Assembly (NCBI GenBank): GCA_020161835.1
Contig: JAIUNL010000001.1
Coordinates: 496,001-560,000 of the forward strand
Length of the DNA: 64,000 nt
Source of the DNA: Bacteroidota bacterium
GTDB lineage: Bacteria > Bacteroidota > JABWAT01
Direction of reading: 5' to 3'
A program made the position numbers and the translations under genes. The notes under the pieces were generated by a model, which made no database searches, was not told where the DNA came from, and was given only the letters and a program-made list of their open reading frames with translations. Numbering within the stretch: the first letter of the stretch is position 1; each line of letters opens with the position of its first letter. Shown one piece after another: positions 10,140-20,744 of this stretch.

Positions 10140-11651
10140 TTATTTCCCTTCCTCCTTGTTCGCTTCCCCTGACAAATCAATCATTTTTTCACCCTGGGTA
10201 TATTCTTTGGTGTGGCGGAAGTATCCTTTTTCGAGATGTTCGAGTCGCTGGAGATATTGGTTGATTGTGTTCACACTTCGCTGTGCTTTAAAAATATACT
10301 GCTTCTTTTCTTCTTTGGTTGTCTCTTCGGGAAGATCCATCACATCCAGAATACCACGGATGATTTGCAGGGGTTGCCTGATTTCGTGTAAAATCCCGAT
10401 GGTGACCTGCCGGGCAAGCATAAATCTTTCCTGTTCCAGTTTCCGGGTTTCCTGGTTTTTCAATTCCAACTCAGATTTCAGCAGATTGATACGATCTCCC
10501 AAAGCCAGAGACAAAAGAATAATCTCAATGGCTGCGCCGATCTGAATGCCGTAGGTTGTGATAAACGTTACCGGTAAAATCCCGAAATTTTTAAGGGCAA
10601 ACAACGTCATTCCGATCAGGAACATCAGCCAGGCAATCAGGAAAAACCACGCCGGCCGGTACTTTTTGGCAATGGCATAAATGGATGCTATCAGAATCGA
10701 CGGTGCCACCAGAAGGGTCATAAAAGCCGAGGCCATCACCATCTGATGGTATGGAATCACAAATGCCCCGAATGAAATCAGAACCCCGACAACCCGGAGT
10801 CCTTTCATGATTTTGTAGAAAACCGGATTGTACTGTTTCAAATTCAGAAAACTGGTGGTGAACCAGAGACTGAAGGCATAAACCATTCCGATGAAAAAGA
10901 TCAGGGCAACGTTATTCCACCAGGGCAAATCAGGCCACAGATATTCATAGGCCAATCCGTTAAAAATCATCTGAAGAAGCAAAAAGGCAGAAATGAAAAT
11001 CACATACAGAAGGTAGCTTTTATCACGGAGGGAAAGAAACAGCAAAAAGTTGTACAGCATCAGCGACAGGAAAATGCCGTAATAAAATCCGAGTACAAGC
11101 TGTGATTCATGATCGGTTTCACGAAAGTTCGATTCACTTCTGAAGACTATCGGGATGGAAATCGCACCGGCAGATTCAAACCGGAAGTAAAGCGTGTCAA
11201 CGGTTTGAGTTGGCAAATGCAGTTTAAAAACGAAATTGCGGTATTTGATTTCCCGGGTTGAAAACGGCAACCGGTCGCCGGTGGTGATTTCATCATATCC
11301 ACCTGATCCATCCGGATGAAAAAAGGAAATGAGATCCAGATTCGGATAGGCGACTTCCACAACCCAGTGCTGATGATCTTGAGCTTCATTATTCACAATC
11401 ATTCTCACCCAGAAAGCAGATTCTGAATATCCGAGATTCGGGTTTTCCTCTGTGGATGGTTGAAACCGGTGATCCAGACGTCCGGACCTGACATCCTGAA
11501 AAGAAAAGGAATGAAGGGAATCCTGAAGAATAGACAAATAGGTTCCGGCCGGAATAATTTCCTTTTCCGGGGAAAGTGTCAGCGGTCCGGCAACCGACTG
11601 AGTTGTCAGAACCAAACCGAAAAGAAAAAGGAGAAAAAGCTTTTTAGACAT
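10140..11651 (-). CDS. 7TM-DISM sensor protein with histidine box but no ATPase domain
   Basis: 503 residues. It has a signal peptide (1-22), an extracytoplasmic 7TMR-DISMED2-like beta domain (about 40-170), a 7TMR-DISM seven-helix membrane region (about 183-385) and a short coiled coil (390-412). A dimerisation/phosphoacceptor-like helix with an H-box ILHEIRQPL follows (His422). A normal histidine kinase would continue with an HATPase_c domain of about 120 residues carrying N, G1 and G2 boxes. Here the protein stops 81 residues after the His, in a charged tail. A terminator just downstream shows that the ATPase is not simply in the next gene. It may act as a phosphotransfer or scaffold protein, or be a pseudokinase. 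It is divergent from the sulfur operon by 234 bp and could sense a signal for it. Confidence 0.8.
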   Translation of the reverse strand: MSKKLFLLFLFGLVLTTQSVAGPLTLSPEKEIIPAGTYLSILQDSLHSFSFQDVRSGRLDHRFQPSTEENPNLGYSESAFWVRMIVNNEAQDHQHWVVEVAYPNLDLISFFHPDGSGGYDEITTGDRLPFSTREIKYRNFVFKLHLPTQTVDTLYFRFESAGAISIPIVFRSESNFRETDHESQLVLGFYYGIFLSLMLYNFLLFLSLRDKSYLLYVIFISAFLLLQMIFNGLAYEYLWPDLPWWNNVALIFFIGMVYAFSLWFTTSFLNLKQYNPVFYKIMKGLRVVGVLISFGAFVIPYHQMVMASAFMTLLVAPSILIASIYAIAKKYRPAWFFLIAWLMFLIGMTLFALKNFGILPVTFITTYGIQIGAAIEIILLSLALGDRINLLKSELELKNQETRKLEQERFMLARQVTIGILHEIRQPLQIIRGILDVMDLPEETTKEEKKQYIFKAQRSVNTINQYLQRLEHLEKGYFRHTKEYTQGEKMIDLSGEANKEEGK

Positions 11652-11885
11652 GTTGATCCACTAAAGTTTTGCAAATTAAGTCCGACGGTGATCATTCACA
11701 AGATTTTGTCATTTCAGTGTGATGCCGGATAAAATTCCAGCCAAAAATTAGAATACGATTAAAACATCTATTTGTCGTAAAATAGTCTGACATTTACAGT
11801 ATTCTATCAGATCAAAGAATCGGTGTAAAAATTCTGAATTTTTCTCTGACACGCTGAACGTTTTAAAACCAAAGCCGGACACAAC

Positions 11886-14102
11886 ATGCAATCACGCCGG
11901 GATTTTATCAAGATTATGGCACTCGGAACCGGTGCCCTCGCCCTCAGCGGCGGACTTTTTGCCTTCATGGATCCGAAACGGGAAGATGGCCGGCCAGTCG
12001 TCGCCCTCGATTACAAGACCGCAACCTATTGTGAAATCTGTTTCTGGAAATGTGCCGGCTGGGCCTACAAAACAGAAAAAGGTGAACTCTGGAAAATTGT
12101 CGGAAATGATGACGATCAGCACTCAAACGGACGTTTTTGTCCGAGGGGAACCGGCGGCGTTGGCATGTACAACGATCCGAACCGGCTGAAAAAACCCATG
12201 ATCCGTGTTGAAGAACGGGGAAAACAAGTTTTCAGAGAAGTGTCATGGGCCGAAGCGCTTGATTATACCGCAAAAAAACTATCCGGGATTTCAGCGAAAT
12301 ATGGTCCGGAAGCGATTGCCCTTTTCACGCACGGATCCGGCGGAAAATATTTCGGCGATTTGCTCAAAGCCATGGGATCCACCAATATCACCCAACCTTC
12401 CTACGCACAATGCCGTGGCCCCAGAGATGCTGCTTTTCTGGCAACCTTTGGCGAGCAACCTGATTCACCCGAAGTCACAGATCTTCGTGACACCAAATGT
12501 CTCGTTCTGATCGGGTCGCATATCGGTGAAAATATGCACAATGGCCAGGTTCAGGAAATGTCTGATGCCATTGATAAAAAAGCTACCATTATCACGGTTG
12601 ACCCCAGATTCTCGACAGCAGCAAGTAAATCGAAATACTGGCTTCCCATCAAACCGTCAACTGATCTGGCCTTGCTCCTCGCCTGGATTCACGAAATTAT
12701 CAACAATGAGTATTATGACCGGAAATATGTAGAAACCTACACAACCGGACTTGAGCAACTTAAAGAGCACGTTAAAAACTTTACGCCTGAATGGGCTTAC
12801 GGCATCACCACCATCGAACCTGACGTCATCCGGCAGACTGCAAAAGAAATGAGCAACGCCAAACCGGCCGTGATTATTCACCCGGGACGGCATGTGACCT
12901 GGTATGGCGATGACACTCAACGTGAACGGGCAATTGCTATTTTAAATGCACTTCTGGGATCTTGGGGCCGTCGTGGCGGATTTTACCGTCCATCCAAAAA
13001 AACAGTTCCGTCTTATCCGCATCCGGAATATCCAGAACCCAAAACCACTTGGAAAGACTGGTTCCCCGGTCAGTATCCGCTGGCTGACAATCCGGTTTCA
13101 AACGCCTTCGTTGATGCTTCCATTCCAACCAAAGAACGGGATGCCTTCCTGAAAGCCTGGATCGTGAACGGAACGAATCTCATTTTCACCATTCCTGATC
13201 AGGCACATACGCTTGAAGCCATTCAGGCGCTGGAACTTCTGGTTGTAGTTGATACCATGCCGATGGAAATAACCGGCTGGGCAGATGTGATTCTTCCGGA
13301 ATGTACCTACCTGGAACGGTATGATTCACTTCGTGACAGTCCGCACCGGAAACCGGCCATTGCCCTCAGAATGCCGGCTATGGAACCTGCTTATGAAACC
13401 AAACCTGCTTACTGGATGGCACGGGAACTGGCAAAACGTTTGAATGTGGGCGAATATTTCCATTTTGAAGATCAGGCCGATCTACTCGACTGGCAATTGA
13501 AAAAAATGGGTTCGTCACTTGAAGAACTGAAGAAAAAAGGCGTCATCACCTGGGATCGTGAAGAAGATGATCTTTTCTTCGCCAACGGAGAAAAAATTGA
13601 GTTTCCGACTAATTCCGGAAAGATCGAATTGTACTCGTCCGCCATGGAGCAGGCCGGATTTGATCCGATGCCGAAATACACGGCCCACGAAGAACCGCCA
13701 TCCGGATTTTACCGCCTGATTTACGGACGGGCACCGATGCACACCTTCAGCCGGACGGCAAACAATCCGAACCTGACTGATCTGATGGATGAAAACGTGT
13801 TGTGGGTGAACCCTAAAGTTGCCAAAGAATGGGGACTGAAAAACAACGATCCCGTTTTCCTGAAAAATCAGGACGGCATTCAGTCTGACTTTGCAATCAA
13901 AGTAAGGGTAACCGAACGGATCCGCTGGGATTCGGTTTACATGGTTCACGGTTTCGGGCATAAGCAGAAACAACTCGAACGGTGTTTCGGTAAGGGCGTT
14001 TCAGACACCCAGCTCATTACCAAAGTAAAAATCGACCCGGTCATGGGCGGCACCGGCATGCGGGGCAATTTCGTGACTTTCATTCCTCAAGTTTTAGCCT
14101 GA
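11886..14102 (+). CDS. Molybdopterin oxidoreductase catalytic subunit, polysulfide/thiosulfate reductase type
   Basis: 738 residues. A Tat signal (SRRDFIK plus a hydrophobic stretch) directs the folded enzyme to the periplasm. Cys49, Cys52, Cys56 and Cys85 (C-x2-C-x3-C-x28-C) form the proximal 4Fe-4S site. Cys176 in SYAQCRGPRD sits where PsrA/PhsA enzymes place the cysteine ligand of molybdenum. Mo-bisPGD domains follow, and the C-terminal dinucleotide-binding domain begins near residue 610. Length agrees with PsrA and PhsA (about 760) better than with arsenate reductases. It is the first gene of a six-gene operon with B and C subunits directly downstream. Substrate choice among polysulfide, thiosulfate and tetrathionate cannot be settled from sequence, but the sulfur-linked genes downstream favour a sulfur compound. 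Confidence 0.85.
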   Translation: MQSRRDFIKIMALGTGALALSGGLFAFMDPKREDGRPVVALDYKTATYCEICFWKCAGWAYKTEKGELWKIVGNDDDQHSNGRFCPRGTGGVGMYNDPNRLKKPMIRVEERGKQVFREVSWAEALDYTAKKLSGISAKYGPEAIALFTHGSGGKYFGDLLKAMGSTNITQPSYAQCRGPRDAAFLATFGEQPDSPEVTDLRDTKCLVLIGSHIGENMHNGQVQEMSDAIDKKATIITVDPRFSTAASKSKYWLPIKPSTDLALLLAWIHEIINNEYYDRKYVETYTTGLEQLKEHVKNFTPEWAYGITTIEPDVIRQTAKEMSNAKPAVIIHPGRHVTWYGDDTQRERAIAILNALLGSWGRRGGFYRPSKKTVPSYPHPEYPEPKTTWKDWFPGQYPLADNPVSNAFVDASIPTKERDAFLKAWIVNGTNLIFTIPDQAHTLEAIQALELLVVVDTMPMEITGWADVILPECTYLERYDSLRDSPHRKPAIALRMPAMEPAYETKPAYWMARELAKRLNVGEYFHFEDQADLLDWQLKKMGSSLEELKKKGVITWDREEDDLFFANGEKIEFPTNSGKIELYSSAMEQAGFDPMPKYTAHEEPPSGFYRLIYGRAPMHTFSRTANNPNLTDLMDENVLWVNPKVAKEWGLKNNDPVFLKNQDGIQSDFAIKVRVTERIRWDSVYMVHGFGHKQKQLERCFGKGVSDTQLITKVKIDPVMGGTGMRGNFVTFIPQVLA

Positions 14103-14113
14103 GCAGGTAAATT

Positions 14114-14647
14114 ATGCGATATGCAATGGCCATTGATACAAAAAAATGTGTGGGATGCAGTGACTGTGTGGTTGCCTGTCAGACCGAAAATAACGTCCCG
14201 ATCGGGTATTGCCGTGACTGGATTGTTGAAGAAACCAACGGCACCTACCCTCAGCTTGAAATGGAACTCAGAAGTGAACGGTGCAACCATTGCGCCAATG
14301 CGCCCTGTGTGAGATGCTGCCCGACCGGAGCCAGTCACATTGTGGAAGGCGGAATTGTTCTCGTCACCCAAAACGACTGCATCGGTTGTGGTGCCTGTAT
14401 TGCTTCGTGTCCGTACGATGCCCGTTATCCGTATCCTGATGGTTATGTTGATAAATGCACATTCTGCTATCACCGGGTGAAAAAGGGCGAAAAACCGGCC
14501 TGCGTGGAAGTTTGTCCGACCAAATGTCTGTACTTCGGTGATCTTGACGATGCCAACAGTGAAGTTTCGGTCATCCTCAAAAAACGGAAGTATAAAACTC
14601 TGATTCCGGAAGCCGGAACTGACCCCCAACTCTATTTTCTCATTTAA
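14114..14647 (+). CDS. Four-cluster ferredoxin electron-transfer subunit (PsrB/PhsB/NrfC type)
   Basis: 177 residues with sixteen cysteines in four ferredoxin-like groups: CVGCSDCVVAC near the N-terminus, CNHCANAPCVRCCP, CIGCGACIASCP, and CTFCYHRVKKGEKPACVEVCP split by a loop. This is the full complement for four 4Fe-4S clusters that carry electrons between the membrane NrfD subunit and the molybdenum subunit. It has no signal peptide, as expected for a subunit that hitch-hikes through the Tat system with the catalytic partner. It begins 11 bases after the molybdoenzyme gene and ends 15 bases before the NrfD gene. Confidence 0.9.
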   Translation: MRYAMAIDTKKCVGCSDCVVACQTENNVPIGYCRDWIVEETNGTYPQLEMELRSERCNHCANAPCVRCCPTGASHIVEGGIVLVTQNDCIGCGACIASCPYDARYPYPDGYVDKCTFCYHRVKKGEKPACVEVCPTKCLYFGDLDDANSEVSVILKKRKYKTLIPEAGTDPQLYFLI

Positions 14648-14662
14648 GGATCGGGAGAATTT

Positions 14663-15604
14663 ATGAAAGAAGAACTGATCGTCAGCGGAAGAATGAATCC
14701 GTATGTTGACCCGACCCTGAATATCTGGCACTGGCAGATTCCGCTTTATCTTTTCCTTGGCGGACTCGCAGCCGGGATTTTATTCTTTGCTGCACTGAGT
14801 TACATCAGAGGAAGAGAAGAAGCCCACAGTTTCGCCGTGCGGAAAATGCCGTTTCTGGCTCCGGTTTTACTGGTTATTGGTCTGGCCTGTTTGTTTTTTG
14901 ACCTGAACCACAAACTCTTTTTCTGGCGTTTATACACCACAGTAAAACTTCAGTCACCGATGTCGTGGGGCGCCTGGGTTCTTATGGTGATTACGCCGAT
15001 GTCGATGGTTTGGTGTGCCCTTCATATCAAGGAATTTTTTCCCAACTGGGACTGGAAATATACCTGGGCAAAGGAAGCTGAGAAATTTGCGCAGAAGTAT
15101 AAACTCTGGATTGCCTGGATCATTCTGATCTATTCGGTTATCCTAGGGGTTTACACCGGAATTCTCTTCTCTGCCTTCAATGCACGTCCGTTGTGGAATA
15201 CATCCATTCTCGGACCACTTTTCCTTGCATCCGGACTATCAGCCGGTGCTGCAGCCATTATCATGTTCACCAAAAACAAAGAAGAACGGGCTTATTTTGC
15301 CCGCATCGACCTGATCGTCATTGGCATTGAACTCTTCCTGATTACGCACATGTTCATGGGATTCATGGCCAGTACACAGGTACAAATTGAAGCTGCCAAT
15401 TTATTCCTTGGCGGACCTTACACTGCCCCGTTCTGGATTTTTGTTGTTTTTCTCGGGCTGGTCGTTCCGGCTCTGCTTGAAATTCTCGAACTGTTTGATT
15501 ATCACGTTCCTGCTCTTGTACCCTCACTTCTGGTGCTCACCGGCAGCCTGATGCTGAGGTTCCTGATTTCGTTTGCCGGACAGGAAAGCCGTTATCTCTA
15601 CTAA
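14663..15604 (+). CDS. NrfD/PsrC-type membrane subunit
   Basis: 313 residues of almost continuous hydrophobic segments (about eight helices). The characteristic beginning WHWQIPLYLFLGGLAAGILF is that of NrfD/PsrC quinone-interacting membrane anchors. These proteins exchange electrons between the quinone pool and the periplasmic ferredoxin subunit. In the Psr complex they also contribute to energy conservation. A GGGAG ribosome-binding site precedes the ATG. Its position as third gene after the molybdoenzyme and ferredoxin gives the complete A-B-C complex. Confidence 0.9.
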   Translation: MKEELIVSGRMNPYVDPTLNIWHWQIPLYLFLGGLAAGILFFAALSYIRGREEAHSFAVRKMPFLAPVLLVIGLACLFFDLNHKLFFWRLYTTVKLQSPMSWGAWVLMVITPMSMVWCALHIKEFFPNWDWKYTWAKEAEKFAQKYKLWIAWIILIYSVILGVYTGILFSAFNARPLWNTSILGPLFLASGLSAGAAAIIMFTKNKEERAYFARIDLIVIGIELFLITHMFMGFMASTQVQIEAANLFLGGPYTAPFWIFVVFLGLVVPALLEILELFDYHVPALVPSLLVLTGSLMLRFLISFAGQESRYLY

Positions 15605-15617
15605 TCTGGATTCAATT

Positions 15618-16154
15618 ATGGAAACACCTTCAGTTACCCGAAAAGTCAGAGCCTACATGAACCCCTACGTGGCGGGAGTTTTGCTCGGACTCGTTTTACT
15701 TGCTGCCAATTACATCTCAGGCCGTGGCCTTGGTGCCAGCGGAGCCATTAAAAGTGTGGTTGTGACCAGCGTGCTTGCTGTTGATCACGACGCTGCAAAA
15801 ACCTCAGCATTTATTGGTGAATACGAACAGGGCCATGCCGGAAATCCCATGAAAAACTGGCTGGTTTTCGAAATGCTCGGTGTTATTCTTGGCGCCTTCA
15901 TTTCAGGCATCTGGGCTGGCCGGTTAAAAATGAAAGTTGAACATTCCCCCAAAATCACTTCCAAAAGAAGACTCATTTTTGCGGTGATGGGCGGTGTTCT
16001 CTTCGGTTTTGGTTCACAGCTCGGCCGGGGCTGCACCAGCGGTTCGGCTCTCAGCGGAATGGCAGTTATGTCTGCCGGCGGTATTATCACCATGATGGCC
16101 ATCTTCGGAACCGGCTATGCACTTGCTTATTTTTTCAGAAAAAACTGGATTTAA
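15618..16154 (+). CDS. YeeE/YedE family transporter, first half
   Basis: 178 residues using the ATG at 15618, which follows the NrfD stop by 13 bases; an upstream in-frame start would overlap the NrfD gene. It has about four membrane helices and the family signature FGSQLGRGCTSGSALSG with one cysteine (Cys139). YeeE/YedE proteins of the TsuA type import thiosulfate through a pathway lined by conserved cysteines. Here the usual ~350-residue protein is encoded as two genes, and this is the half with a single GRGCTSG motif. It probably delivers or removes a sulfur compound for the adjacent molybdoenzyme. Confidence 0.85.
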   Translation: METPSVTRKVRAYMNPYVAGVLLGLVLLAANYISGRGLGASGAIKSVVVTSVLAVDHDAAKTSAFIGEYEQGHAGNPMKNWLVFEMLGVILGAFISGIWAGRLKMKVEHSPKITSKRRLIFAVMGGVLFGFGSQLGRGCTSGSALSGMAVMSAGGIITMMAIFGTGYALAYFFRKNWI

Positions 16155-16173
16155 ATCCTGAAAGGACTTTAAA

Positions 16174-16779
16174 ATGGGACCTTTATCAGTAAATGATATC
16201 ATCTCGGGCGACACCAATTTTCTGCTCGCCTTTTTTATCGGCATCGGGTTCGGCTTTGTTCTTGAGCAGGCTGGGTTTTCATCTTCCCGCCGTCTCGCCG
16301 GTGTTTTTTACGGCTACGACATGACGGTTTTAAAAGTGTTTTTTACCGGAGCTGTTACCGCCATGCTCGGCATGCTTTTTTTCGGACTTTTCGGATGGAT
16401 GGATCTGAGCCTGATTTATGTGAATCCAACTTTCCTGACCTCAGCAATCTTTGGCGGGGTGATTATGGGAGCCGGTTTCATTCTGGGCGGATATTGCCCC
16501 GGAACCTCCTTCTGCGGTGCTGCCATCGGGAAAGTTGACGCCATGCTGTTCATCGGTGGATTGTTCATTGGTGTGTATATCTGGGGATTCGGTTTTGATC
16601 TCTGGAAGGACATGTACGTTGCCGGAAATATGGGAAGTCCGAAACTGGGCGAATGGCTTGGAATTTCGGATGGTGTGATGGCACTGGTAATCGTGATTAT
16701 TGCGATTGGGGCCTTTTTCATGGCAGAATGGGTTGAATCACTTTCCGCAAAAAAAGAAGAAAGTCAGGAGATTAACTAA
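16174..16779 (+). CDS. YeeE/YedE family transporter, second half
   Basis: 201 residues. It starts with an inverted-repeat-like unit (FGFVLEQAGFSSSRRL) and carries the second family motif GGYCPGTSFCGA with two cysteines (Cys108, Cys114), followed by two more hydrophobic helices and a charged cytoplasmic tail. Together with the previous gene this gives three conserved cysteines over two polypeptides, the number described for the thiosulfate path of TsuA. An AAAGGA motif lies upstream of the ATG. The next gene begins immediately after the stop, so co-translation with the rhodanese is likely. Confidence 0.85.
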   Translation: MGPLSVNDIISGDTNFLLAFFIGIGFGFVLEQAGFSSSRRLAGVFYGYDMTVLKVFFTGAVTAMLGMLFFGLFGWMDLSLIYVNPTFLTSAIFGGVIMGAGFILGGYCPGTSFCGAAIGKVDAMLFIGGLFIGVYIWGFGFDLWKDMYVAGNMGSPKLGEWLGISDGVMALVIVIIAIGAFFMAEWVESLSAKKEESQEIN

Positions 16780-17418
16780 ATGAAACCGAATTTCAGAAAT
16801 GTGATTATTTTGGGCGTTGCCCTGATTCCGCTGGCTCTGATCATTGCTGCCGTTCCGCAGAATCAGATTAAACCTTTCAAATTAACTGCTGAGCAAATGG
16901 TTCAGATGGTGAATCAGAAAGAACATTTTTATTCTGCTGATGTGGTTGCAGATATGCTGGTTCAGAAAGATCCGTCTCTGCAGCTGATTGATGTGAGAAG
17001 TCCGTCTGATTTTGAAAAGTACAGTTTGCCGGGAGCCATCAATATTCCGCTGGCTGATTTGCTGAGCGAACAATATGAAGGTGTTTTGAATCAGGATGTG
17101 AAAGTAAACGTGTTCTACTCAAACGGAACGTTGCAAGCCAATGAAGCCTGGATGATTACCCGTCAGTTGGGTTACCTGAACAATTTCGTTCTCGAGGGCG
17201 GACTGAATTACTGGTTTGAAACGATTATGAATCCAACCGAGCCAAAATCTACCAGCCCGGATGAGGAATTTGCAAAATATGATTTCAGAAAAGGTGCCGG
17301 TCAGGCTCTTGGCGGTGGCGGCGGATTAAATACAGAATCCTCAGCAAAACCCATGGCACCCCAGGCACCGAAAACCATGATCACACCAAAGAAGAAAAAA
17401 GCCGCCGGGGGATGCTGA
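16780..17418 (+). CDS. Membrane-anchored rhodanese-like protein lacking the active-site Cys but ending in Cys
   Basis: 212 residues. Residues 8-26 form an N-terminal membrane anchor with positive charges before it, which places the rest in the periplasm. Residues 50-150 are a rhodanese fold (LIDVRSPSDFEKYSLPGAINIP, then VFYSNGTLQANEAW, then LEGGLNYW). The active-site loop normally starts with the persulfide-bearing Cys (CRxGxR/S). Here it reads YSNGT with Ser114. The only cysteine in the whole protein is the last residue, Cys212, at the end of a flexible Gly/Pro/Lys-rich tail (KKKKAAGGC). A swinging-arm sulfur carrier or receptor for sulfur bound elsewhere is an attractive reading but unproven. 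It is the last gene of the sulfur operon and abuts the transporter half gene. Confidence 0.82.
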   Translation: MKPNFRNVIILGVALIPLALIIAAVPQNQIKPFKLTAEQMVQMVNQKEHFYSADVVADMLVQKDPSLQLIDVRSPSDFEKYSLPGAINIPLADLLSEQYEGVLNQDVKVNVFYSNGTLQANEAWMITRQLGYLNNFVLEGGLNYWFETIMNPTEPKSTSPDEEFAKYDFRKGAGQALGGGGGLNTESSAKPMAPQAPKTMITPKKKKAAGGC

Positions 17419-17424
17419 GATGGT

Positions 17425-17515
17425 CACAGATCACGGGTTACATATTACGGGTCACAAAATGCGGGGACAGGTGACAAGGGACAAGGGACAAATACGGGTT
17501 GCGAATCACAAGTAA
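17425..17515. repeat. Degenerate GGGACAAGGGACA/GGGTTAC repeat after the sulfur operon
   Basis: Tandem-like copies of GACAAGGGACAAGGGAC (17473 onward) are flanked by TCACGGGTTACA and TTACGGGTCACA variants. Related segments follow the stop codons at 52561 and 27570. The repeat begins a few bases after the stop codon at 17418. Confidence 0.6.
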
Positions 17516-17541
17516 CTGGATAAAATTAAAAAGATTTTGAA

Positions 17542-17596
17542 TGTCAGGCTGAGTGGCGATTTGGCCGAAGGCCGGATCGTTGTATCGAAGCCTCAT
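17542..17596. repeat. Modular hairpin element (GTCAnnCTGAGTG - core - TATCGAAG), copy 1
   Basis: GTCAGGCTGAGTG is followed by a short core with GGCC-gaa-GGCC and then TATCGAAG. The same outer parts enclose different palindromes at 39973, 63062 and 63639. The rest of the gene-free stretch 17419-17834 contains a terminator (17604) and a promoter (17713). Confidence 0.55.
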
Positions 17597-17603
17597 GTTT
17601 TTT

Positions 17604-17640
17604 AAGAAGGGTTACCAGAAAGGCAACCCTTCTTGGTTTT
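17604..17640 (+). terminator. Terminator of the sulfur operon
   Basis: AAGAAGGGTT (17604-17613) pairs perfectly with AACCCTTCTT (17625-17634) over an 11-nt loop and is followed by GGTTTT. It is the first strong hairpin after the rhodanese gene. Confidence 0.65.
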
Positions 17641-17712
17641 AACAAATTCACAACAGAACCTCCTGTTTATGATTAGAATTTAATTGGATGCTATTTATTT
17701 TAAGAGAGTTTC

Positions 17713-17742
17713 TTGTTAATTATTAATAATCCCGTATCTTCG
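17713..17742 (+). promoter_or_regulatory. Bacteroidota-type promoter of the beta-barrel gene
   Basis: TTG (17713-17715), 19 nt, then TATCTTCG (17735-17742), one base off TAnnTTTG. It leaves a 5' leader of about 85 bases before the ATG at 17835. Confidence 0.5.
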
Positions 17743-17834
17743 CATCGCCTTTCCTGAAACTCGTAGATAATTTTTCGAACAAAAATAAAGCCTGGGTTTT
17801 AGGTAACTCACTTAAAATAGAGATGGAGACTTAC

Positions 17835-18512
17835 ATGAAATCATTTGTTACTTTTGCAACCCTTCTTTTATCATCCTCTGTACTAATGGCTCAGGGTACC
17901 CAATCTAAACTCGAACCCGAAGTAGAATCTAAAGAAGGGTACACTGCCGTTTTCGCTACGGTTGGCATTCCCTCCGGTGATTTCGCCAAGGAAACAGCAG
18001 ATAATTTGGGAAAAGCAAAAACGGGTTTTGGTATTGGTATTTCACGTGTTAATCAAATTAATCCGCAACTGAGTTCTGTTTTTGAAGCCCGTTTTAATTA
18101 TAACTCACTGGATGTATCAGAAGCAGAAGGTGAACTTTCGGGAAGTGGCGTTTCCATTGATGAAAGTGGTTATAAAACCATCTGGGGATTGGGTGGTATT
18201 CAAATCAATTCAGTGATGAATTCAGGTGGCCGCATTTATGTAAAGGGACTTGGTGGAGTCGTATTTGGTTTGTCGCCTCAAGTTGAATTAAGTGGGGATG
18301 GTGAAACGCTGGTAGTGTTTAAGGGTTCAACTGCCCTGTCATTCGGTTTTGGTTTTGGCGGTGGGTTTACAATCAAGGATAAGTTTCTTCTTGAATTAAT
18401 GTATTTACATGCCAAGCCTGAATACACGATTACAAGTGATGTTTTTGATGAATCTGTAAAGACGAAAATGGATCACTCCATTATTTCGATAAGCTTTGGG
18501 TTTTTATTGTGA
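17835..18512 (+). CDS. Secreted outer-membrane beta-barrel protein
   Basis: 225 residues from the ATG at 17835. This start is chosen because GGAG at 17825-17828 lies 6 bases before it, whereas the in-frame ATG at 17823 has no such site. A signal peptide (MKSFVTFATLLLSSSVLMAQ) precedes a series of amphipathic strands (FATVGIPSGDFAKE, IQINSVMNSGGRIYVKGLGG, FGFGFGGGFTIKDKFLLELMYLH) typical of small 8-stranded outer-membrane barrels of the OmpA/Opa-like type. It ends with ISFGFLL, which fits a terminal barrel strand. Function unknown. Monocistronic, with its own promoter and a strong terminator. Confidence 0.75.
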   Translation: MKSFVTFATLLLSSSVLMAQGTQSKLEPEVESKEGYTAVFATVGIPSGDFAKETADNLGKAKTGFGIGISRVNQINPQLSSVFEARFNYNSLDVSEAEGELSGSGVSIDESGYKTIWGLGGIQINSVMNSGGRIYVKGLGGVVFGLSPQVELSGDGETLVVFKGSTALSFGFGFGGGFTIKDKFLLELMYLHAKPEYTITSDVFDESVKTKMDHSIISISFGFLL

Positions 18513-18550
18513 TTTAATTGTTTAATCAGTCTGACCCTGCTCCCGATTTT

Positions 18551-18587
18551 TCAGGTGGAAAGTAACAATACTTTCCACCTGATTTTT
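18551..18587 (+). terminator. Strong terminator after the beta-barrel gene
   Basis: TCAGGTGGAAAGTA (18551-18564) and TACTTTCCACCTGA (18569-18582) form a perfect 14-bp stem with a 4-nt loop, followed by five T residues. Confidence 0.9.
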
Positions 18588-18649
18588 GCTTTTTTCACTT
18601 CTCATGACATTCCAATACATTCCTGATTCCAAATTGACAATCCATTTAC

Positions 18650-18657
18650 TACCTTTG
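18650..18657 (+). promoter_or_regulatory. Candidate -7 element of the acyl-CoA synthetase gene
   Basis: TACCTTTG matches TAnnTTTG exactly and lies 17 bases before the ATG, implying a very short leader. The only nearby TTG is 13 bases upstream, closer than usual. Confidence 0.4.
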
Positions 18658-18674
18658 GATAACTTTATCCCGAA

Positions 18675-20744
18675 ATGGACTTTGATATGCTGGAAGCCTT
18701 TTTCAAACCAAAGGGAGTTGCCATTATTGGTGCTTCCCGTGATCCGCACAAACTGGGTTATGGCGTCGTCAGAAACCTGACTGAATTCCGTTATAAAGGC
18801 CCGGTTTATCCGGTCAATGCCTCCGCCTCAGAAATTCTGGGGTTAACCTGTTACCCCTCGGTCAGTCAGGTTCCAGATCCTGTTGATCTTGCCATCATTG
18901 TCGTTCCCGCCCCAAATGTTGTCGAAATGGTGGATCTCTGCGGAAAACGGGGGATCAAATATGTCATCGTTACTTCAGGCGGATTTGGTGAAACCGGTGA
19001 AGAAGGAAAAGCCAGAGAACGGCTGCTTAAACTGACGGCTGATAAACATAGCATTCGTCTGATCGGTCCGAATTGTATCGGCTCCATTGATACCCACACC
19101 CCTTTAAATACCACTTTCGTCATGGGAATGCCCATTCCCGGTGATATTGGCTTTACTTCACAATCAGGCGCCATGGTTGCTGCTGTTATCGACTGGGCAA
19201 GAGGCGCCGGCATCGGGTTTTCAAGAATTGTGAGTCTGGGAAATCAGGTTGATGTGACTGAACGGGAAATGATTGCATCCATGGTGAACGACCCGCACAC
19301 CAAAGTGATTACTGCTTATGTGGAAGGTGTTTCAAACGGACGTGAATTCATGGCGATTGCAGAGGAAGCCGCCAGAAAAAAACCTTTAATCGTTCTCAAG
19401 GGCGGAACCGGAGAAGGCGGCGCAAAAGCAGTTGCCTCTCACACCGGTTCTCTTGCCGGAAGTGCTGATGCCTACCGGGCTGCCTTCCACAGGTCAGGAA
19501 TTCTCACCGCCACCACCATGGAAGAACTTTTCGACTGGGCACGTGCCCTCGCCTGGCAACCCCTTCCAAAAGGAAACCGGATTGCTGTTCTGACCAACGC
19601 CGGCGGACCCGCAATCCTTGCTGTCGATGCACTTGAAGCTTCCGGACTCAAGCTCGCACCTTTAACCGAAGCCACCCGTGCGCATCTGAAACCCAGAATC
19701 CCTGCCGCCGGAAGTGTGAACAATCCGGTAGACGTTCTTGCAGGATCAGGACCAGCAACTTACGCACTTGCGCTCGATACCCTGCTCTCAGATCCAACCG
19801 TTGATGCAGCCATTGTCATTCAGGCGCCTCAGGATTGGTTTTTACCGGAATCTCTCGCAGAAGTGATTGGTGAAGTTGCTGCAAACCATAAAAAACCGGT
19901 TCTTGCTGCGATTATGGGAATGGCATCCGTACAAAAAGCACTTGAAATTCTCCACCGAAAGAAAGTCCCCAATTTTGCATTTCCTGAACGGATGGCTTCT
20001 ACTCTCAAAGCCATGCTGAACCGGTATCACTGGCTCGAAAGTCAGCGGGAATCACATATTTCGCTTTCCGGAATTGATCATCTTGAAGCACAAAGTGCCA
20101 TTTATCATCAGGATTTCGTGAGACTGATGGAGGCTTATGGTATTCGCTTTCCGGCGTTTGAACTTGCCCAAACTGCAAAAATGGCGGCAGCTAAGGCATC
20201 ACAGATTGGCTACCCGGTGGTGATGAAACTGATTTCACCTGATTTCACACACAAATCTGATGTTGGTGGTGTTTTGTTGAACCTTAAAACTCAGGATGAT
20301 GTGCTTCAGGGTTTTGATGCCATTATGAATATGGCCAAAATGATCAGGTCAGATGCCAGAATTGAAGGCGTCCTCATTCAGAAAATGATGCCGAAAGGAC
20401 ATGAAATTCTCGTCGGATTGAAACAGGATGCCCAGTTTGGTCCGCTGATTGTTGTGGGAACCGGGGGTGTAGAAGTTGAACTGGTCAGAGATGTGGCCAT
20501 GGGAATTGCACCACTTTCGCATCAGCAGGCAACTGAATTGCTTGGCAGAACCATTGCAGGAAAACGGCTTAACGGCTGGAGAAGTATTCCGCCAGGTGAT
20601 TGGAATGCAGTAACAGATGCGGTGGTAAGATTATCTCAGATCGGGGCAGACTTTCCCGAGATCAAAGAACTGGAGATTAATCCGTTATTGGTTCTTGATC
20701 CCGGGAATGGGGCTTTTGCTCTTGATGTCAGGGGTGTTATTTAA
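18675..20744 (+). CDS. ADP-forming acetyl/acyl-CoA synthetase (fused alpha-beta subunits)
   Basis: 689 residues. It has an N-terminal CoA-binding domain (GVAIIGASRDPHKLGYGVVRNL), succinyl-CoA-ligase-like domains with the phosphohistidine region ASHTGSLAGS, and a C-terminal ATP-grasp domain (about 465-689, MKLISPDFTHKSDVGGV). These enzymes interconvert acyl-CoA plus ADP and phosphate with acid plus ATP, making ATP from acetyl-CoA or branched acyl-CoA during fermentation of sugars or amino acids. Some homologues act as protein or propionyl ligases, so the substrate is open. The ORF ends 8 bases inside the convergent receiver-like gene. It is transcribed alone. Confidence 0.9.
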   Translation: MDFDMLEAFFKPKGVAIIGASRDPHKLGYGVVRNLTEFRYKGPVYPVNASASEILGLTCYPSVSQVPDPVDLAIIVVPAPNVVEMVDLCGKRGIKYVIVTSGGFGETGEEGKARERLLKLTADKHSIRLIGPNCIGSIDTHTPLNTTFVMGMPIPGDIGFTSQSGAMVAAVIDWARGAGIGFSRIVSLGNQVDVTEREMIASMVNDPHTKVITAYVEGVSNGREFMAIAEEAARKKPLIVLKGGTGEGGAKAVASHTGSLAGSADAYRAAFHRSGILTATTMEELFDWARALAWQPLPKGNRIAVLTNAGGPAILAVDALEASGLKLAPLTEATRAHLKPRIPAAGSVNNPVDVLAGSGPATYALALDTLLSDPTVDAAIVIQAPQDWFLPESLAEVIGEVAANHKKPVLAAIMGMASVQKALEILHRKKVPNFAFPERMASTLKAMLNRYHWLESQRESHISLSGIDHLEAQSAIYHQDFVRLMEAYGIRFPAFELAQTAKMAAAKASQIGYPVVMKLISPDFTHKSDVGGVLLNLKTQDDVLQGFDAIMNMAKMIRSDARIEGVLIQKMMPKGHEILVGLKQDAQFGPLIVVGTGGVEVELVRDVAMGIAPLSHQQATELLGRTIAGKRLNGWRSIPPGDWNAVTDAVVRLSQIGADFPEIKELEINPLLVLDPGNGAFALDVRGVI

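Follow-up and report, generated by a model that had tools for sequence, protein, structure and literature searches.

This locus raises the question of what role is played by a rhodanese-family protein that has no cysteine in its active-site loop and a single cysteine at its very C-terminus. The protein (212 amino acids; ORF and Pfam) is encoded at 16780–17418 on the + strand of a 64,000-nucleotide stretch of Bacteroidota DNA, hereafter the window, by an ORF whose ATG follows immediately on the stop codon of the gene before it. Rhodanese (PF00581) was its sole Pfam match, at 50.3 bits against a cut-off of 22.2. The usual rhodanese loop reads Y-C-x-x-G-x-R-S. In the window protein the corresponding loop is the degenerate YSNGT (17116–17130, +; residues 113–117), with Ser114 (17119–17121) where a catalytic rhodanese has cysteine, and an ungapped comparison with the usual loop showed that its Gly and Arg are also gone. 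The only cysteine, Cys212 (codon 17413–17415), is the last residue of the tail ITPKKKKAAGGC. Both the Ser114 substitution, checked in the translation and the alignment, and the sole, terminal Cys212, checked in the translation, were exactly as the initial annotation had described them.

An AlphaFold2 model of the window protein (mean pLDDT 82.7) contained a helix at residues 6–24, a confident rhodanese domain, one further helix (161–176) and a low-confidence tail from residue 181. The tail block (17320–17415, +; residues 181–212), which is basic near its end and terminates in GGC, had a pLDDT of 40–49; from pLDDT and conservation, the domain is predicted to be ordered and the basic tail of about 32 residues to be flexible and disordered. 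The top Foldseek rows for the model were mainly rhodanese-like chains at probability 1.00, the first of them, 2hhg, being titled a possible tyrosine phosphatase. Hydropathy and charge indicated a putative N-terminal membrane anchor (16801–16857, +; residues 8–26) that overlaps the first model helix. Because K2 and R6 precede this anchor (N-in), the rhodanese domain is predicted to be periplasmic. In the fused relative P0122, six hydrophobic stretches were found with K+R counts of 2, 1 and 4 in the predicted inner loops versus 0, 0 and 2 outside, a charge distribution that likewise places the rhodanese part in the periplasm. Hydropathy and charge thus predict a periplasmic location for the domain.

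The neighbouring genes, all on the + strand, point to sulfur metabolism. A Psr/Phs-like molybdopterin catalytic subunit with an RR leader (Tat-type, by eye) lies at 11886–14102, followed by an NrfC/PsrB-like 4Fe-4S subunit (14114–14647; profile matches) and an NrfD/PsrC-like membrane subunit (14663–15604; PF03916, 157.5 bits), so that all three subunits of a Psr/Phs complex are present. The best solved relative of the catalytic subunit was 2vpw (642 bits over residues 3–731), and the NCBIfam PhsA model scored it at 470 bits, under its equivalog cut-off of 694. Two Sulf_transp halves follow, each with one conserved pore cysteine as in the PmpAB/YeeE family. YeeE1 (15618–16154; PF04143, 79.4 bits) resembles the C-terminal half and carries GRGCTSG with Cys139, which was kept in 115/115 rows; YeeE2 (16174–16779; PF04143, 42 bits) resembles the N-terminal half and carries GYCPGTS with Cys108, kept in 115 of 116 rows, the remaining row having a gap. 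YeeE1 aligned with residues 222–319 of TsuA, and Cys139 fell in the region of Cys293, described as the cysteine that thiosulfate meets first on its path (PMC11073785). No solved relative of YeeE2, which in other lineages forms one chain with the rhodanese, was found by sequence at E up to 1. The six-gene order of the window recurred in many of the loci, and 11000–18700 contained no Rfam match. Two cultivated environmental species, Labilibaculum filiforme (L043) and Marinifilum flexuosum (L049), also carry the operon.

We then assessed the conservation of the two positions. Ser at 114 and a GGC end were present in 121/121 close homologues (the query and the best 120 of 2653), and the cysteine was unique in 120 of these 121; near relatives dominate this list, as they do the list of fused relatives (best 120 of 3181). 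To avoid circularity, profiles were built from tail-trimmed domains of the tail-Cys family and of ordinary rhodaneses, and 456 proteins with distinct C-terminal 120 residues were scored. The results showed that 370 were nearer to the tail-Cys family, with the cysteine last in 365, next to last in 4 and lacking in 1, whereas 83 of the 86 ordinary rhodaneses had no tail cysteine (the other three, L164, L245 and L198, have one last or next to last). The single exception without a tail cysteine, at L172 (34 vs 32 bits, intact CHIGQQ loop), is a borderline ordinary rhodanese, namely the one encoded upstream at a Balneolaceae-type locus. Most of the 370 came from the best-120 lists, and the independent lineages are therefore far fewer. 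Their loop residue was Ser in 227, Ala in 110, Gly in 27, Cys in 3, Asp in 2 and Thr in 1, and since one of the three loop-Cys rows is the misplaced L172, only 2 of 369 true members keep a loop cysteine. The tail cysteine is near-invariant and the loop residue varied, which indicates that the former has been kept while the loop drifts. The initial annotation had coupled a loop serine to a terminal cysteine: a loop that is usually Cys-less stands, but the serine is not specific and the cysteine need not be the very last residue, as the counts above show.

The tail-Cys proteins also separated as a group. In a domain tree (108 domains, 108 columns, rough bootstraps), all 63 tail-Cys rows lay on one side of a single branch with 99/99 support versus the ordinary rhodaneses; the tree left out N_L162 and N_L229 (sampled family members), ordinary rows below 45 bits, two rows with no usable domain hit and exact copies. 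Gly precedes the terminal cysteine in 134/135, and the last 15 residues contain on average 3.75–5.9 K+R by subtype, while the ends themselves vary (EGC, MGC, FQC, or GGC followed by A, G or T). Chemistry of the ThiS/MoaD/CysO type, considered for the GG-C end, was rejected because the GG is not kept. A scan of 296 genomes of the phylum gave six occurrences of KKKxxGGC followed by a stop, five of them in the tail-Cys rhodanese family; the sixth (G168) has TGG where the stop is expected. A general sorting or processing tail was rejected on this confinement. Among other non-overlapping ORFs of at least 150 amino acids in the fetched loci, 3 of 1730 ended in Cys and none in GC.

A rhodanese sample was drawn as every third of the first 118 listed places (40 loci, 4 of them with no row of their own) plus 12 places in the window's genome. 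Its 53 proteins comprised 48 with a loop cysteine and no tail cysteine, 3 with both (L164, L245 and L229, the last a tail-Cys family member), 1 with a tail cysteine only, which is the window's own protein, and 1 scored as having neither (L159), an alignment failure whose sequence contains CWRGGMR. The L164 protein, on contig C4 of the window's genome, is an ordinary rhodanese whose loop is intact and whose His-rich tail ends in STCC; it is unrelated to the present finding. The scan patterns behind loci L004–L083 included the tail motif, and these loci are not unbiased for the tail; a count of 97/394 takes in ordinary rhodaneses and is not the prevalence of the tail-Cys family.

The association with YeeE was assessed from the transporter side, in a survey of PF04143 in 198 genomes that did not start from the rhodanese. 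On the YeeE1 profile, the pairs of newly fetched loci split cleanly into a long type (233–276) and a short PmpAB type (31–77). A tail-Cys rhodanese lay within 2.5 kb of 36/36 long-type pairs (35 from the survey, two of which, L004 and L005, were taken from the public entry for the same contig, plus the window), compared with 0/27 short pairs, the 27 being those fetched among the survey matches listed. These results indicate that in Bacteroidota the tail-Cys rhodanese is usually encoded next to a YeeE-type membrane protein or forms one chain with it. The initial annotation had expected the Cys-less loop and the C-terminal cysteine to be conserved together next to YeeE; this was borne out both by the matching pairs and by the tail-blind sorting of 370 relatives, and neither of the outcomes it had named as pointing to decay, random loss of the tail cysteine or a normal catalytic cysteine, was seen in the relatives examined. 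One tail-Cys operon (L081) is on a contig labelled Candidatus Neomarinimicrobiota, which together with the Chlorobiota-labelled L039 makes up the only non-Bacteroidota labels among the 80 loci L004–L083.

A further branch, which includes named Ignavibacteria records, has the rhodanese as the C-terminal portion of YeeE2 itself. Both Pfam domains and a GC end were found in 120/120 fused relatives (best 120 of 3181), the loop residue being Ala, Gly, Ser, Asp or Thr, and public annotation already names some of these proteins YeeE/YedE thiosulfate transporter family. YeeE was present and no Psr/Phs was seen at 23/24 fused loci. Homologues of one cytochrome were encoded three genes upstream in 21 of the 22 fused loci examined (the exception, L178, was unparsed), with a b-type cytochrome (20 loci) and YeeE1 (20 loci) between it and the fusion. 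Each of three cytochromes inspected has 8 CxxCH motifs, and 3/3 tested passed the NCBIfam cut-off of the octaheme tetrathionate reductase family (568, 578 and 571 vs 375 bits); the one b-type subunit tested resembles thiosulfate reductase cytochrome b (109 bits, under the 204 cut-off). The conserved four-gene cluster of octaheme cytochrome, b-type cytochrome, YeeE1 and YeeE2-rhodanese fusion, seen at L119, L127, L150 and other fused loci, is a possible physiological context for octaheme tetrathionate-reductase-family cytochromes. At L153, L172 and L173 (Balneolaceae-type) and at L145, the upstream gene encodes a rhodanese of several domains that keeps a loop cysteine and whose N-terminus looks signal-like by eye.

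The module therefore occurs in three unrelated enzyme contexts: the Psr/Phs molybdoenzyme, the octaheme tetrathionate-reductase-family cytochrome and the intact-loop rhodanese. Across 133 loci, counted for rhodaneses with a tail cysteine only, Psr/Phs alone was found at 89 (rhodanese adjacent), octaheme at 23 (fused; a loose label covering any same-strand ORF of 400–650 amino acids with at least 7 CxxCH), intact rhodanese at 4, other combinations at 8, and no enzyme was seen at 9. In eight of these nine the sequence upstream of the rhodanese is shorter than 2.2 kb; in the last, L152, a partial rhodanese ORF lies upstream. The reading of the tail cysteine as a sulfur carrier, put forward in the initial annotation, is supported by these sequence patterns and strengthened by the fusion to YeeE2 and by the three contexts.

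The tail was also retained away from YeeE. Genome G295 (99% complete) encodes Psr/Phs genes and two tail-Cys rhodaneses ending in EEGGC, and gave no PF04143 match at E 0.01. Tandem tail-Cys rhodaneses, with copies ending in PEGGC or EEGGC, were found at L114:7631–8915 and L115:10–1314; at L115 the YeeE pair is missing, and its genome has no PF04143 match. Survival of the tail cysteine when either partner is absent is what a shuttle between the two would show and does not fit service to one partner alone, and G295 suggests that delivery to the pore is not obligatory.

We compared the protein with known sulfur carriers. DsrC/TusE, of which the initial annotation had cited DsrC for comparison, carries a C-terminal swinging cysteine; this likeness holds, but the protein is cytoplasmic and of a fold unrelated to rhodanese. 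In Sud of Wolinella the cysteine sits in the rhodanese loop, whereas the window protein has its sole cysteine on the tail and none in the loop. Sud is otherwise described as a periplasmic, rhodanese-like protein with a single essential cysteine that feeds polysulfide reductase (PMC2754497). SoxY binds sulfur on the cysteine of a C-terminal swinging arm, in which Gly residues flank it as GGCGG (PMC6067878, PMC5336275), and the low-confidence model tail with its Gly-flanked cysteine resembles this arm, which would make SoxY the nearest functional analogue, nearer than DsrC. The tail-Cys rhodanese differs from SoxY in its fold, Rhodanese being the only Pfam match of the window protein, in having the cysteine as its last residue and in being predicted to be membrane-anchored, or fused to a YeeE half; no Sox family, SoxZ partner included, was found among the 8 operon-region proteins scanned.

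YeeD (TsuB) is a small Cys carrier with a TusA-like fold that sits at the cytoplasmic face of YeeE (TsuA) and in some species is fused to it; its cysteine is the fourth in line with the pore (PMC11073785). The tail-Cys protein is similarly a small candidate Cys carrier beside or fused to a YeeE-type protein, but it is a rhodanese, is predicted to lie on the periplasmic side and gave no match to TusA, the fold with the CPxP cysteine. A cytoplasmic YeeD-like role is disfavoured by this predicted topology and by the lack of a TusA-family match in the window's genome at E 0.01. PmpAB consists of two half-transporters with one conserved cysteine each (PMC11582611), and for YedE1E2, which requires both cysteines, import of zero-valent sulfur has been reported but no export (PMC10812762). 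The window's YeeE pair is likewise made of two halves with one conserved cysteine each, but its halves are longer (178 + 201 amino acids) and are accompanied by the tail-Cys rhodanese.

From these observations, the tail cysteine is likely a tethered carrier from a predicted periplasmic sulfur enzyme to the predicted pore mouth of the adjacent YeeE-type proteins. Sulfane sulfur would come from the enzyme or the medium, and the thiol of the basic, Gly-flanked swinging tail would take it up as a Cys212 persulfide (or S-sulfonate). The rhodanese domain would serve as a docking platform with no chemistry of its own, holding the tail near enzyme and pore. In the window, sulfur from the Psr/Phs-like enzyme would pass via Cys212 to the first pore cysteine, YeeE1 Cys139, with a net inward flow if the direction is borrowed from the related split pair YedE1E2 (PMC10812762). 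We infer both the persulfide on Cys212 and its transfer to the pore. In an AlphaFold2 model of a fusion the YeeE2 half had a pLDDT below 50 (residues 1–90 and 93–163), and the docking geometry therefore gives no support to the pore step. Also counting against this reading, cysteine is present in both loop and tail in G123 and G030 (L137 and L148, one genus), and the window's genome (94.4% complete) gave no TusA/YeeD match (PF01206) at E 0.01.

Other readings of the tail were weighed against transfer from enzyme to pore. In one, which we regard as unlikely, the Psr/Phs-like reductase would be the sole recipient of polysulfide sulfur from Cys212, in the manner of Sud, and YeeE would share the operon for separate sulfur import. 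G295, which retains enzyme and tail but not YeeE, agrees with this, as does the description of Sud as binding polysulfide sulfur and transferring it to polysulfide reductase (PMC2754497); however, the fused form makes rhodanese and YeeE2 a single chain, nearly all fused loci lack a visible Psr/Phs, and every long-type YeeE pair examined keeps the tail protein. The opposite emphasis, a tail that carries no cargo and whose persulfidation or oxidation opens or closes the YeeE pore, is equally compatible with the fusion and the invariant tail end (120/120, best 120 of 3181), but leaves unexplained both the retention without YeeE in G295 and the repeated pairing with sulfur-converting enzymes, and we consider it very improbable.

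A structural cysteine, which would hold the complex together through an intermolecular disulfide, as a metal ligand or by attachment to membrane or lipid, appears improbable, if a little less so than a gate. The basic residues beside Cys212 would suit membrane contact and the window protein has no other cysteine, but a membrane anchor is already predicted, the confinement of KKKxxGGC to one family is unlike a sorting signal, the one residue after the cysteine in four members disfavours a fixed C-terminal processing signal, and the surrounding genes encode sulfur enzymes and members of a sulfur-transport family. Local decay, in which a rhodanese simply lost its cysteine, would account for the missing loop Cys and G-x-R, but it was rejected outright, as the tail cysteine is conserved and the domain strongly conserved across Bacteroidota lineages.

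Extending the carrier reading, we tentatively propose, with rather less confidence than in the carrier itself, that in Bacteroidota the emptied rhodanese fold may act as a periplasmic docking platform and the tail cysteine as a movable entry cysteine, in a covalent relay from enzyme to tail to YeeE pore by which sulfur might cross the membrane through protein persulfides and not as a free ion. In this recurrent module the candidate presenting cysteine is identifiable and conserved, and in the fused branch it belongs to the pore's own chain. If true, a large enzyme superfamily would have a case in which the working cysteine has moved from the fold to the tail, and sulfur import in Bacteroidota would be linked to enzymes of the Psr/Phs and octaheme tetrathionate-reductase families. 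How sulfur oxidizers bring sulfur into their cytoplasm has been called poorly understood (PMC11582611), and we found no description of a C-terminal-Cys rhodanese beside or fused to YeeE in the accessible full-text literature, a scope outside which preprints and most subscription papers fall.

Finally, a regulator was noted at some of the loci. Inspection by eye of the region before the window's operon revealed no obvious MerR-like ORF. Homologues of a MerR-like regulator (by eye, with a Cys-rich C-terminal part) were present in 28 loci, such as L119, L131 and L144, covering both the Psr/Phs type and the octaheme type, and the gene lay directly upstream in three loci inspected.
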